Positions 21,880 through 31,176 of a stretch of DNA of 64,000 bases are shown piece after piece. Positions within the stretch are counted from its first letter, which is position 1; the number at the start of each line of letters is the position of its first letter. The position numbers and the translations under genes were made by a program. The DNA comes from Phaeotremella fagi (Eukaryota; Basidiomycota; Tremellomycetes; Tremellales; Phaeotremellaceae), in contig BCHU01000012.1 in NCBI GenBank assembly GCA_001599715.1, positions 930,001 through 994,000 of the forward strand. Reading direction: 5' to 3'. Under the pieces are notes generated by a model. It worked only from the letters and a program-made list of their open reading frames with translations, did no database searches and had not been told where the DNA came from.

Positions 21880-23636
21880 TTAAATAGTGTGACCCTTGTC
21901 ACCAAACTTCCAGCGGGCTGCCAAAACTGCGAGGCCAGAGACACCAAGCAGAGCACAGGTGATGGCGAATCCCATGTGGTACAATGGTGCATCGGTTGAT
22001 GGCCAGAAGAACGATCCGTAAACGGATGAAAGGTTACCAAAGCCATTGATCAAAGCAATCGAAACAGCACGTTTTTCACGACCATCGAACATGGTAATCA
22101 TCCAACTGAGGAAGAGTGGGATTCCAGTCCAGATCCCGGCACCACCGAAACACATAAAGGCGTAACTGAGTTGGAATCAGTGCTGTGACAAAAAACCCTG
22201 AGACAGAGTAACTTACCGAACTTGGTTACTTGGAACAGTAGCACAGATGATGAAAGAGACCAAGGCAAGACAGATTGCTCCGAAAAGGAAGAAAGCCTTT
22301 TGCCCAGTTCGATCGGCGAAAAATCCAGTAGTAAGAGCAATGATAAGAGCAACAATATAGATAGGTACGGTCATGTCTGAAAGTCAGCGATGTTTATCAA
22401 GCAATACTTACATTGAACCATGGAACCAGTGTATCCTAAAGAGCCCATGAGGGTGGGGAAGAAGTAGGAGATGGTACCAGTACTGTTGAAAACGTTGTAG
22501 ATGAACAAGAAGGTCTGCAAGAAGTGTCAGGACACGGCTAGAGATTTAGTAACGCTACTCACCCAGGTTTTAGGATCCTTGCAAGCGGCGAAGAACGCTT
22601 GTTTGTGTGAAAGAATAGCTGCGTTGGGGTCGTCACCTTGAGTGAGACGAACGACTGCCAAAACCTTTTCTTCTTCATTGAGCCATTTGGTGTTACCAGG
22701 GTAGTCTGTGATATTTGCATGAGTTACAATTCAGATTCAGATCATAACTTGACTCACCTGGAAGGATGAAGAATGCAACAACAGCTATGCACATAGTAAC
22801 CAAACCCTCGATGATAAACAACCATTTCCATCTGAGCCAGTCAGTATGATAGATACAAGCGAAGAGATATTTAATACTCACCCTGCCGTACCCGCAACAC
22901 CATCAAGACCAGAGATGATACCACCAGCAAGAAGTCCACCAGTTGCACCGGAAACTAATGACGCTGTGTAGAAGCCCGCAACACGCTTGGATAGCTCAAG
23001 AGGTTTATACCAGCAGGAGAGGAGTAACATGACACCGGGGAAGAATCCAGCCTCAACTAGCCCTAGCACGAATCTGAACGCGACCATACCACCAGTGGAA
23101 GTGACTCCCTTGGCTCCAATAGACATGCCTCCCTGAGACGAGATCAGCCAACGTCAAATCAGGATATAAATAAATGGACTTACCCAGCAGAACATGAGGA
23201 TTGGTAGGAAGATACTAGGTTTGGATCGAGCCAAAAGCATGTTGGATGGAATTTCATTCAAAAGATAACCCTGAATTGTCAGCTCAGCCTTGAAGAAGTT
23301 TACTCACGACGAAGAAAATAGACAGAATCAAGGAGTAATCTGCAGAGCTGAGGTTCAAGTCGGTTTGCATACCTCCAGATTTAGCGTTCTACTCGGGTCA
23401 ATGATGCACTGCGTGTGAGAAATTGAATGACTTACACCTATATTGGTACGATCGATATAGTTGAAAACATACATCAACCAGAGACATGGCAACAGTCTGA
23501 TGTCGATTTTACGAAGAAGTCGCTTCTCAGCATCTGTACCGGGAATGTAAACAGGTTCGTCGTTGTTCTTGAGCTCGGTTGGTTGAAGATCGATGTGTTC
23601 GATATCAACTTTACTATCTGATTGACGAATAGACAT
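21880..23636 (-). CDS. MFS anion:cation symporter (DAL5/TNA1-type), intact
   Basis: Seven or so exons join into about 490 residues. The N-terminal cytoplasmic region ends RKIDIRLLPCLWLMYVFNYI, followed by DRTNIG, the hallmark of the ACS family. Then come YLLNEIPSNMLLARSKPS, RFVLGLVEAGFFPGVMLLLS, GWKWLFIIEGLVTMC, TGFFADRTGQKAFFLFGAIC and GREKRAVSIALINGFGNLSS, with the last helix GFAITCALLGVSGLAVLAAR. Relatives carry allantoate, ureidosuccinate, nicotinate, pantothenate or dipeptides across the plasma membrane. A CGGGTT...AACCG palindrome lies 68 bp upstream of the start (23704-23721), like those near the oxoprolinase cluster. It is a useful intact comparison for the broken paralogue next door. 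Confidence 0.9.
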
Positions 23637-24150
23637 AGTGAGTGTGAGAAAGAGAGATAAGTGGGGAAGAGACGAGCCAGATAACCTTACTTATACCTTG
23701 TGCCGGGTTTATCAATAACCGCTTGTTTCAGGGGCTTCGTGGGCCTGGTTCACAGGGATCAATGAAATCGGCTGGAGTCTCCGGAGCGATATTCAGGGGC
23801 CTTGAGATCCCAAGGCGAAAAGGCTGAGGAAGGAGAGACTGTATAAGCGGGGTAGTAGGTGGAGGTAAACCTTGAAGTCTGGACACGAGCTGGGATGATT
23901 TTAATAAAAAGCTCAGCGATCCTACGGTACACTTGTTTGTGCAGCTAAGCGACAATGCGGTTATGGACGGATTGGTCTTGGCGCTTCCATTTAAACAAAC
24001 CTCGGTATATGATCTGTGCGCGACCAAGCACCGGTGTGATCGGACCATATTAGAAACGGACTAAGATTTTTGCGAAGCGAGAAAGCATCTAAAGTATGAA
24101 GTGTCTACCCCTTTTTCCCCAGTCCAAATTAACCCCTAGTGCACCAACCA
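23637..24150. promoter_or_regulatory. Upstream region of the DAL5-like gene
   Basis: 514 bp with no convincing gene. It contains the palindrome at 23704-23721 and the 14-mer TTGTTTCAGGGGCT (23723-23736), which recurs exactly at 26457-26470 upstream of the broken paralogue. AGGGG is a stress-response-element core in yeasts; its use here is inference. Confidence 0.45.
23704..23721. promoter_or_regulatory. CGGGTT-type palindrome, copy 1
   Basis: CGGGTTTATCAATAACCG: arms CGGGTT and AACCG in inverted orientation, 68 bp upstream of the DAL5-like start. Inverted CGG triplets are typical zinc-cluster sites. Confidence 0.45.
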
Positions 24151-25748
24151 CTAGTACACCAAATCCTCCTTTAAAATCTCTCCTCTTTTCCCTTTCTCAC
24201 GACGTAAAGCTGCAACGCGACGGACTTCCTTTTCGATGTCGTACGTGAGGTACCAAATGAGCACAACAGTTAAAGCAGACGCTGCTGCAAAACCGAGACG
24301 CGAGGGCGGCAGCCCGAGCAGCAATCCCCAAACACCCCCTCGCGGCAGCGAGGGAGGAGGTGACCACCGGTCACTGTTCTGGTGGCAACCAGAACACGTG
24401 ACCGCCACAACGGGTGGCAACCCGTTTAAACCAGGTGGCAACCTGACGGGTGGCAACCCGTACCGGCAGGTACACACCCGTGACCCTTTGCGGGTGGCGA
24501 TTGCTGTAACACCGAAAGTGGCACTTATCTCTTAGTAAGTAATGTGTCGAACAGTTTCCGTTTCGATTGCAGCGTGTGTTGTGTGTGTGTGTGCTTTTCG
24601 CTCTTGAGTCGTCACTTACCAGCCCTTCTAGAAACTGGTTGCCACCAGTAATCAACTGTCACGGTTGCCACCGTGGATTGGACCGGGCTGCCGCCCTATT
24701 TTTATCTCAGTGGTGTTGCTCGGGCTGCCGCCCTCGCGTCTGTTCAAAAGTTGACTTGAGGCAGTTGTCGTCAGACCAAAGCCAGCAATCAAAGTCGGCA
24801 ACCAGAAACTGACCCCGGTGGTTGCAGAATTGGCAAGGAACTGAGCTCCAGCGAAAGCGTATAGCAGAGGGGATTTCAGCTCTTCTCTGATAGACGGCCA
24901 ATCGAAATTAGCGTCTCCAGAACGAGCTTGTCCTGGTGGTAGACGGGCTACCATGAAAGCACCTTCTTCTGGAGTCAAAAATTGTCGACGCGAAGGAGGT
25001 GAATCAGGGTAATCGGGAAGGAATAAAAACAGGAGAGCAGCGACGATCAAACCAATGACACCAATAACCACGTAGGTCCATTGCCAACCTGCCATTCCTT
25101 TCCCACTAGCGAACGAGAAACCAAAAGTAATGAGGGCATCACAGATACCAGAGAATTGACCCAACAGACCTAAACAAGCTGCCCTCACTGCAAGTTCATC
25201 CGGACGATACCAGAAGAGCAGTTGAAATAGGATTCCAGGATAAAGTCCCCCTTCTAATAGCCCGAGAAGAAATCGACAAGCTAAGAATGAAGCTTGATTT
25301 GTACAGGCAGCGGTACACGCTACAACTATGGACCACGATCCGAGGATGCGAACAAAATGAAGCTGCAGAAGTTTATCAGCCAGGGGCAACGTGTTTTGCT
25401 TACCCTCGGTGTAGACCATTTGATCAAAAAGTTACTGGGTACCTCCGAAATCGCAAACCCCACTGTGAACACGGTCGCTACCAGAGCGTATTCATCCGAT
25501 GTCATGTTGAGCATTGTCAAAATATTGGTTGGAGTACCGGGATTGATAGTTTTCACGTAACTGGTAATGTTGCCATCGATATTTTTGATCAGATAGGCGA
25601 GGATGAGTAGAGGCAGGAGGTGCCAATCAGCTTTTCTTTTGAGACGTCGGGCTTCTTCATATGAATGGAGGCGACGTATTTCAGCCAAATCACCGTCAAC
25701 AATTTCTGTGTCCTTAGAGGAACCGAGTTTTTCTTCGAGGTCGCTCAT
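24151..25748 (-). pseudogene. MFS anion:cation symporter interrupted by a hairpin-rich element
   Basis: The N-terminal part is good: MSDLEEKLGSSKDTEIVDGD, RKADWHLLPLLILAYLIKNI (the usual D-R-T-N reads D-G-N-I), FLACRFLLGLLEGGLYPGIL, GWQWTYVVIGVIGLIVAAL, and TM7 NSATTGVSFWLPTLIAGFGL to SSQLLN. There the frame enters the GC-rich element at 24741 and stops inside it at 24652. Past the element, from about 24295, the same strand resumes with GFAAASALTVVLIWYLTYDI and a normal charged tail ending KEDLVY at 24151, aligning to TM12 of the intact paralogue at 21880. About 115 residues (TM8-TM11) have no counterpart, so the gene was disrupted by replacement rather than by simple insertion. A spliced chimera is possible but would lack four helices. 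Confidence 0.75.
24296..24741. mobile_element. 446-bp TIR element built of GGCA/TGCC tetraloop hairpins
   Basis: The two ends, 24296-24320 and 24717-24741, are perfect 25-bp inverted repeats (outer left end AGACGCGAGGGCGGCAGCCC). Inside are at least eleven short perfect inverted repeats, each with a 4-nt spacer GGCA in the left half (for example 24337-24354, 24375-24396, 24409-24426, 24432-24445, 24446-24461, 24460-24473) or its complement TGCC in the right half (24634-24649, 24660-24675, 24685-24696). Arms differ from unit to unit but stay self-complementary, the longest being TGTTCTGGT/ACCAGAACA, extended outward by GGTCAC/GTGACC with one bulge. No protein-coding frame is credible and no clear target-site duplication is seen. 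It is much richer in GC than its surroundings and lies inside an MFS gene. Confidence 0.7.
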
Positions 25749-27903: not shown

Positions 27904-28104
27904 AAGGGTTCAGACCTTCTGAATGTGAGATCCAAAGTTGGGAAAAAGAAAAGGAAAGTATGGAAAACATTGGCCTTTAAAAATATCTGTCCCTCGGGGT
28001 TCAGGATTCAATGAGTGTTCAATGAGGACTTGAAGTGAATTTAATGGAATACCAAAACAACAATACAACAAAAATGATGATGATGATGTTGATGATGATG
28101 ATGA

Positions 28105-28428
<324 letters not shown>

Positions 28429-30930: not shown

Positions 30931-30937
30931 ACTATCC

Positions 30938-31068
30938 TTCTAGAAGAGTGATTTCTCTTCTAGAATAACGTCTTCTAGAATAGATTTCTCTTCTAGAACA
31001 CTCTTTTAGAATACTTTTCTAGAGTAGTTTTTCTAGAATAGATTTCTTCTAGAAGATTGTTTCTAGAA
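30938..31068. repeat. Array of seven perfect TTCTAGAA palindromes
   Basis: Perfect TTCTAGAA occurs at 30938, 30958, 30973, 30991, 31031, 31047 and 31061, with two near copies between. TTC-n2-GAA is the inverted unit of the heat-shock element. Spacing is irregular (14-40 bp), so this is not a simple tandem repeat. It follows LTR-like copy E. Confidence 0.8.
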
Positions 31069-31176
31069 TGACGTATACTATTCTATAAAGTAAAAAATAC
31101 TGTCTGATAAGCAGCTTGAAATGATGTGTGATACTATGGCATAACCGAGTCATGACAATTAGGGATGAAAAACAAT

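Follow-up and report, generated by a model that had tools for sequence, protein, structure and literature searches.

In yeast, mitochondrial GC clusters are flanked by AG or ACT direct repeats and are able to merge and shuffle, and an 18-nt yeast piece equals the end of cluster GC42, according to the available text of the work (PMC4478555). The double-hairpin elements of fungal mitochondria, described in fission yeast as adjacent G+C-rich hairpins, are thought to be mobile in the part of the paper available (PMC10085805). Palindromes of Volvox carteri occur in mtDNA, ptDNA and the nucleus, carry a mostly 4-nt loop of TAAA or TTTA on stems that range from 4 to 37 nt in mtDNA, and build composites of up to 633 nt, the nuclear copies being judged inert in the available account (PMC2670323). 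Of the Lobosphaera mtDNA repeats, LIMP has an invariant 7-nt loop in either orientation and HyLIMP has complementary stem changes (PMC4524435, available part), while sponge repeats show more variation in their loops than in their stems (PMC2800124, likewise in part). The titles and abstract openings of open-licence papers, a partial coverage of the literature, yielded no nuclear fungal hairpin family, and the words "hairpin" and "palindrom" are absent from the portions available of two tremellomycete mitogenome papers. MITE and foldback transposons have terminal inverted repeats and arms of repeated inverted sites, with no gene inside.

The locus described here lies in the window, the stretch of 64,000 nucleotides analysed (C12:930001-994000), in an assembly of 22.6 Mb and 24 contigs. 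The preliminary description had reported an element with 25-bp perfect inverted repeats at its ends and eleven perfect stem-loops, the loop being GGCA in the left part and TGCC in the right. These features are all present (Table 1): the ends match perfectly over 25 bp and with 96% identity over 28, the eleven hairpins start where they had been placed, with stems of 4-9 bp, and seven GGCA loops are followed by four TGCC loops, a mirror order that has a 0.6% chance under random orientation. The extension of hairpin 3 past a bulge is also real, with 16 pairs in the fold where 15 had been counted. Hairpin 1 gains two further pairs past a 2x2 G.A mismatch and then spans 24300-24319; the 20-bp core of the left end at these positions, GCGAGGGCGGCAGCCCGAGC, recurs singly on contig C2. 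The hairpins occupy 168 of the 446 element bases and reach 70% G+C, compared with 58% for the element and 44% for the window, and the spacers between them are at about 50%.

Table 1. Features of the hairpin element and of the interrupted MFS gene (window coordinates)
Feature	Position	Strand	Details
MFS gene 3' end	24151..24294	-	GFAAASALTVV...ILKEDLVY*; matches five paralogs; too short for own Pfam match
Whole element	24296..24741	.	446 bp, 58% G+C
Left terminal inverted repeat	24296..24320	+	25 bp, holds hairpin 1
Hairpin 1	24304..24315	+	stem 4, loop GGCA
Hairpin 2	24337..24354	+	stem 7, loop GGCA
Hairpin 3	24375..24396	+	stem 9 (16 with one-base bulge), loop GGCA
Hairpin 4	24409..24426	+	stem 7, loop GGCA
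Hairpin 5	24432..24445	+	stem 5, loop GGCA
Hairpin 6	24446..24461	+	stem 6, loop GGCA
Hairpin 7	24460..24473	+	stem 5, loop GGCA
Centre without such hairpins	24474..24633	.	160 bp, 49% G+C, (GT)n stretch
Hairpin 8	24634..24649	-	stem 6, loop TGCC on + (GGCA on -)
Hairpin 9	24660..24675	-	stem 6, loop TGCC on +
Hairpin 10	24685..24696	-	stem 4, loop TGCC on +
Right terminal inverted repeat	24717..24741	-	25 bp, holds hairpin 11
Hairpin 11	24722..24733	-	stem 4, loop TGCC on +
MFS gene exon 2	24742..25362	-	open through ...LTTTASSQLLN; Pfam MFS_1
MFS gene intron	25403-25363	-	41 nt
MFS gene exon 1	25404..25748	-	frame as read

Within the element, 11 of the 12 GGCA or TGCC words act as loops on a perfect stem of at least 4 bp, against 2 of 338 in the remainder of the window, and the perfect four-base-loop hairpins of the element with such stems are exactly the eleven, with no other loop. 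Over 2000 dinucleotide shuffles of the element the GGCA/TGCC loop class had a mean of 0.03 hairpins and a maximum of 2, no loop class of any kind exceeded 2, and hairpins of mixed loops averaged 2.1 per shuffle and reached up to 11. Folding the element as a single strand, a check that the preliminary description had proposed, gave a structure far more stable than its shuffles (z = -11.1 as DNA of the + strand, against 100 shuffles; z = -10.1 as RNA of the - strand), to which pairing between the two ends and between the two arms contributes in part.

When the hairpins are aligned in the GGCA direction, only the loop is common to all of them and the stems differ. Every hairpin closes its loop with T-A or C-G, the core GGTGGCAACC is present in 6 of the 11 sites, and GGCA closed by C-G presumably belongs to the stable DNA loop class d(cGNNAg). 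An alignment of nine stem pairs in ten distinct hairpins (90 cells) has 64 paired cells, with 23 two-sided changes, one outer T-G pair being entered among them, and no one-sided change; entry into the alignment required a perfect inner stem, which left no room for one-sided changes in the four innermost pairs. The covariation score and the count of two-sided cells were reached by none of 500 shuffles, whereas the number of two-sided pairs was matched by 12 and the number of pair types by 20. The unbiased evidence lies in the word-as-loop counts and the shuffle counts and not in the covariation cells, and with perfect stems of differing sequence around nearly every such word the earlier claim that structure is kept and not letters is borne out. 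A fixed loop on free stems suggests that the hairpin itself is recognised. Rfam families had no match in the window at gathering score and none in 24200-24850 up to E = 5, and an RNA gene reading of the element was dropped on this ground.

Two observations go beyond the preliminary description: an MFS transporter gene is split by the element, with an intact part directly on either side, and the terminal hairpin of the element occurs alone on C2. The part of the gene upstream of the element matches Pfam MFS_1 with E 7e-16 and is 81% identical to the relative P0003 over 118 residues; the nearest named proteins are from the tremellomycete fungi Naematelia (66%) and Saitozyma (57%). The outer ends of the terminal repeats fall on the gene break, at distances of 0 bp (last N codon) and 1 bp (first G codon), so that the gap between these codons measures 447 bp, of which 446 are the element, and the letters are contiguous across both junctions. 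P0003 has 123 residues between the same two points, and these are gone from the interrupted gene. In six paralogs, which are among the closest of many (11 loci were measured, 5 being repeats of the same genes), the gap is 432, 466, 475, 479, 543 and 543 bp; the similar length of the lost segment and of the inserted element may be a coincidence. A query with the 123 residues of P0003 found six places in the assembly, all with at most 44% identity, and on these matches the notion that the gene segment had moved rather than been lost was dropped. That the element encodes the missing residues was likewise discarded, as there is no meaningful similarity. The remaining exons are free of stops and frame breaks as read, and judged from this reading the insertion looks recent. 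The element is placed in a 1.05-Mb contig and within a gene with a spliceosomal-type intron, hence not in mitochondrial DNA.

The surroundings of the gene offer some further observations. Adjoining it on the minus strand, more MFS transporter-like frames lie at 21880-23690 of the window, so that the interrupted gene is apparently one of a tandem pair of transporter genes. An oligogalacturonate lyase-like ORF of 409 aa occupies 1186-2415 on the same strand; the best named match among the 120 listed is Sphingomonas (58%), followed by Kwoniella (57%), an order from which an old transfer from bacteria to these fungi seems likely. For a gene of the window other than the interrupted one, Kwoniella, Dioszegia and Saitozyma are among the matches. 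A region of about 4 kb rich in A+T includes ATG/ATA/AAT microsatellites at 28074-28426 with a 100-N gap at 28232-28331, and at 30937-31069 there is an irregular tandem array whose units contain TTCTAGAA and resemble what we take to be heat-shock-element motifs.

The third copy of the terminal hairpin is found alone at C2:918688-918707 and agrees with the element over 22 bp exactly, the matching 22 bp being precisely the end repeat. By our own arithmetic, an exact 22-bp genome match to some part of the 446-bp query has a chance of about 1 in 1000. The host gene of this hairpin is that of an HpcH/HpaI aldolase, with the hairpin inside a 65-nt intron (GTATGT...TAG), and the flanking frames match Pfam HpcH_HpaI positions 86-144 and 143-217, the second below the family cut-off. 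The other two introns read in this gene have 38 and 36 nt, and the lengths of introns predicted by pattern in the window have their peaks at 35-39 and 45-59 nt; a length of 65 nt is thus long, not unheard of. TAAC stands directly on both sides of the exact 20-bp hairpin, and the intron without the hairpin and one TAAC would have 41 nt. Of 63823 window positions, 559 have a 4-bp repeat at the same spacing, or about 1% by chance. Around the inner hairpins of the element no direct repeats above 2 bp were found, and at its outer edges there is no target duplication, the nearby CAAAA lying off the edges.

Searches for further copies did not support the idea of a family. Neither a DNA search, which matched the whole element once, nor a paired-core pattern found a second array in the 22.6-Mb assembly, for which the preliminary description had proposed a search for arrays of GGCA hairpins with stems of 4-9 bp, and the centre (24474-24633) searched alone gave one copy, such a search yielding lower bounds. 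The first DNA search did not return the C2 copy, which indicates that short relatives can escape it and need patterns. A 19-mer of the end with up to 3 mismatches matched the two ends of the element and C2, with nothing else, and an 18-mer matched the ends and C2, one place inside the element and five elsewhere at 3 mismatches (control 2); the 25-bp end thus has no other pair in the assembly and one solo hairpin on C2. All six matches of the paired-core pattern are within the element (control 0). The motif BNNNGGYGGCARCCNNNV occurs 24 times, of which five are in the element and one is the C2 solo, against 58 for the reversed control, and GGGTGGCAACCC with up to one mismatch occurs 28 times, two in the element, against 48. 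A dispersed nuclear hairpin family was rejected, since the reversed control outnumbers the motif genome-wide, and a nuclear family of arrays is not supported, with no second array found and the motif undispersed. At C12:397142 there is a perfect 7-bp GGCA hairpin inside a long open frame, which was taken as chance. Two loci, L326 and L327, have near 1501-1522 19 of the 22 bases of hairpin 3 (control 0); these places have broken stems and no long open frames and are possibly decayed relatives.

Outside the fungus, the exact element ends had no match in IMG/VR or in GTDB contigs. The two-core pattern matched 38 IMG/VR stretches, of which one has two GGCA/TGCC hairpins with a stem of at least 5 bp, nine have one and 28 none; the two are within 89 bp of each other in a coding repeat of a phage (L065). 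In that contig, positions 1454-1542 hold iterated palindromes TGTCGGTGGCAACCGACA within an ORF of the phage; they may be repeats of the origin type, the gene then being that of an initiator. The three-core pattern matched at least 119 GTDB and 102 IMG/VR stretches. A scan of hairpin density over 254 loci (L061 to L314, seven of them from the fungus itself) found such hairpins absent in 200 among the matches listed; the maximum within 500 bp was one in 42 loci, two in 5, three in 3 and four to seven in 4, and the four richest (L206, L107, L212 and L154) are repeated copies of one unit. At 2887-3001 of L154, from a Ruminococcus MAG, four tandem GGCA-loop hairpins show two-sided stem changes, TCAG/CTGA versus TCGG/CCGA, and form a bacterial array similar in style to the element. 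We think that the bacterial and viral GGCA hairpin arrays reflect convergence and not kinship with the element, and viral and prokaryotic relatives were rejected with the exact ends absent and the dense loci read as convergent. That the segment could be part of a known vector or repeat, a possibility raised earlier, found no long match behind it in the plasmid and phage collections: 13 plasmid records, the best 8 of which cover at most 8% of the query with E = 1 to 5, and two phage records covering 4% with E = 5.

Among the described systems, the Volvox palindromes share with the element variable stems around one 4-nt loop, composites of several units and nuclear copies, but there the mtDNA repeats are A+T-rich and the nuclear stretches number hundreds and resemble organelle DNA, while here the loop is GGCA, the hairpins are G+C-rich, and one array and one solo copy were found. 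LIMP shares the constant loop in both orientations and HyLIMP the two-sided stem changes, although in the accessible text their loop has 7 nt, their stems consist of a repeated pentamer and they are mitochondrial with 19 copies (PMC4524435). A constant loop on variable stems is thus common to the element and to the Volvox and LIMP palindromes. Yeast GC clusters, in what is available of their description, are mitochondrial and present in many copies, with loops more variable than stems and repeats of 2-3 bp, in contrast to a nuclear element in which the stems vary, the loop is fixed and a 4-bp repeat is seen at one place. Many dispersed copies, a trait of these clusters, are not seen in the nuclear assembly, where one array and one solo were found, and of direct repeats above 2 bp beside units the TAAC pair of the solo is the one seen. 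The double-hairpin elements, as described in the available text, are dispersed mitochondrial doublets and not an inverted-repeat composite of eleven hairpins. The likeness to GC clusters and double-hairpin elements drawn in the preliminary description can be retained in the sense of G+C-rich hairpins that work alike, and not for location or abundance, as the element is nuclear and its copies are few. With MITE and foldback transposons the element shares terminal inverted repeats, 25 bp and perfect, and it differs from them in its perfect stems of differing sequence and in that no target duplication, other copy or partner was found.

We tentatively propose, at somewhat less than an even chance, a recent nuclear insertion built of short GC-rich hairpins of a mobile type that works like organelle palindromes. 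What moves would be one GGCA-loop hairpin at a time, and the 20-bp terminal hairpin is seen at both ends of the element and once alone in the C2 intron with a 4-bp repeat, which a staggered cut could have made. Such hairpins would move as units by way of a putative enzyme and join, in inverted arrangement, to form a composite of the foldback kind, which would then have replaced about 430-540 bp of the MFS transporter gene, loss and insertion probably being one event. The donor would be DNA outside the assembly, most likely mitochondrial: no nuclear donor was found, and the COX1 and cytochrome b families had no match in the assembly (the positive controls being prokaryotic only), which makes mitochondrial DNA, seemingly absent from the assembled sequence, the natural suspect. 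For mobility, which the preliminary description had left as a surmise, the solo hairpin with its TAAC direct repeat is the one piece of evidence. Against mobile hairpins stand the single solo copy and the chance of about 1% for a 4-bp repeat at the given spacing, a composite without target duplication whose inner hairpins lack direct repeats above 2 bp, a motif that is rarer genome-wide than its reversed control (24 vs 58; 28 vs 48), and spacers at 50% G+C, which look unlike mitochondrial DNA. Moreover, yeast GC42 and sponge hairpins show greater variation in loops than in stems, the opposite of the pattern here, as far as the available texts go (PMC4478555, PMC2800124).

The mirror order of the loops is better accounted for by the main rival, a non-autonomous DNA transposon of the MITE or foldback type, which we consider possible but doubtful. 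Its 25-bp ends and subterminal palindromic sites would be bound by a transposase as double-stranded DNA, and after insertion in the MFS gene an outward deletion from one end would have taken the gene segment together with one target duplication. Perfect terminal repeats at both junctions, the sorting of the loops into seven GGCA followed by four TGCC (0.6% by chance) and the core shared by 6 of the 11 sites fit a transposon well, but one copy was found, with no other end pair, partner or target duplication; for binding sites there is no need of outer stems that differ in sequence yet pair perfectly, and a lone end with a direct repeat exactly at the hairpin edge is unexpected. Quite unlikely, in our view, is a single capture of organelle or plasmid hairpin DNA during repair of a break in the MFS gene, the captured DNA being inert in the nucleus. 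Such hairpins live in organelles and the nuclear copies of Volvox were judged inert in the available text (PMC2670323), mtDNA is seemingly absent from the assembly, and neither a nuclear donor nor the lost gene segment was found in it; yet a random fragment would not start and finish with the same inverted 25 bp, the centre and the spacers are near 50% G+C, and for the 20-bp solo copy one would have to assume a second capture, this time of exactly one hairpin. An assembly or library artefact, with alien or chimeric sequence put in a gap of the gene, is very improbable: it would agree with the single copy, the lack of long homology in what was searched, a gap of 447 bp close to the length of the gene segment replaced and a 100-N assembly gap 3.5 kb away, whereas the letters are contiguous over both junctions, the C2 intron, itself well formed, holds an independent copy of the 22-bp end, and an artefact would not yield perfect differing stems around one loop. 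Least credible of all, in our view, is that the hairpins were made in place by foldback synthesis during break repair. Short templated inverted insertions at yeast breaks are real (PMC11724301, available part) and would produce perfect stems of any sequence, but the process explains neither the eleven-fold recurrence of one constant loop nor the mirror order, nor the solo copy on C2.

Extended beyond this locus, our reading of mobile hairpins leads to a conjecture that is more speculative than the reading itself and on balance improbable: some tremellomycetes could carry nuclear mobile hairpins of about 20 bp, recognised by the GGCA loop and not by the stem, that make a 4-bp target duplication and pile into gene-disrupting foldback composites, a nuclear counterpart of the mitochondrial GC clusters. 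A fungal gene is broken here by a sequence that conserves shape and loop, and not the letters of its stems. For organelle hairpins, GC clusters and double-hairpin elements among them, it is still debated whether movement goes through DNA or RNA (PMC4478555). With one nuclear copy in a gene whose remainder reads as intact and a solo unit in a short intron with an apparent duplication, such movement would become testable by the comparison of strains.
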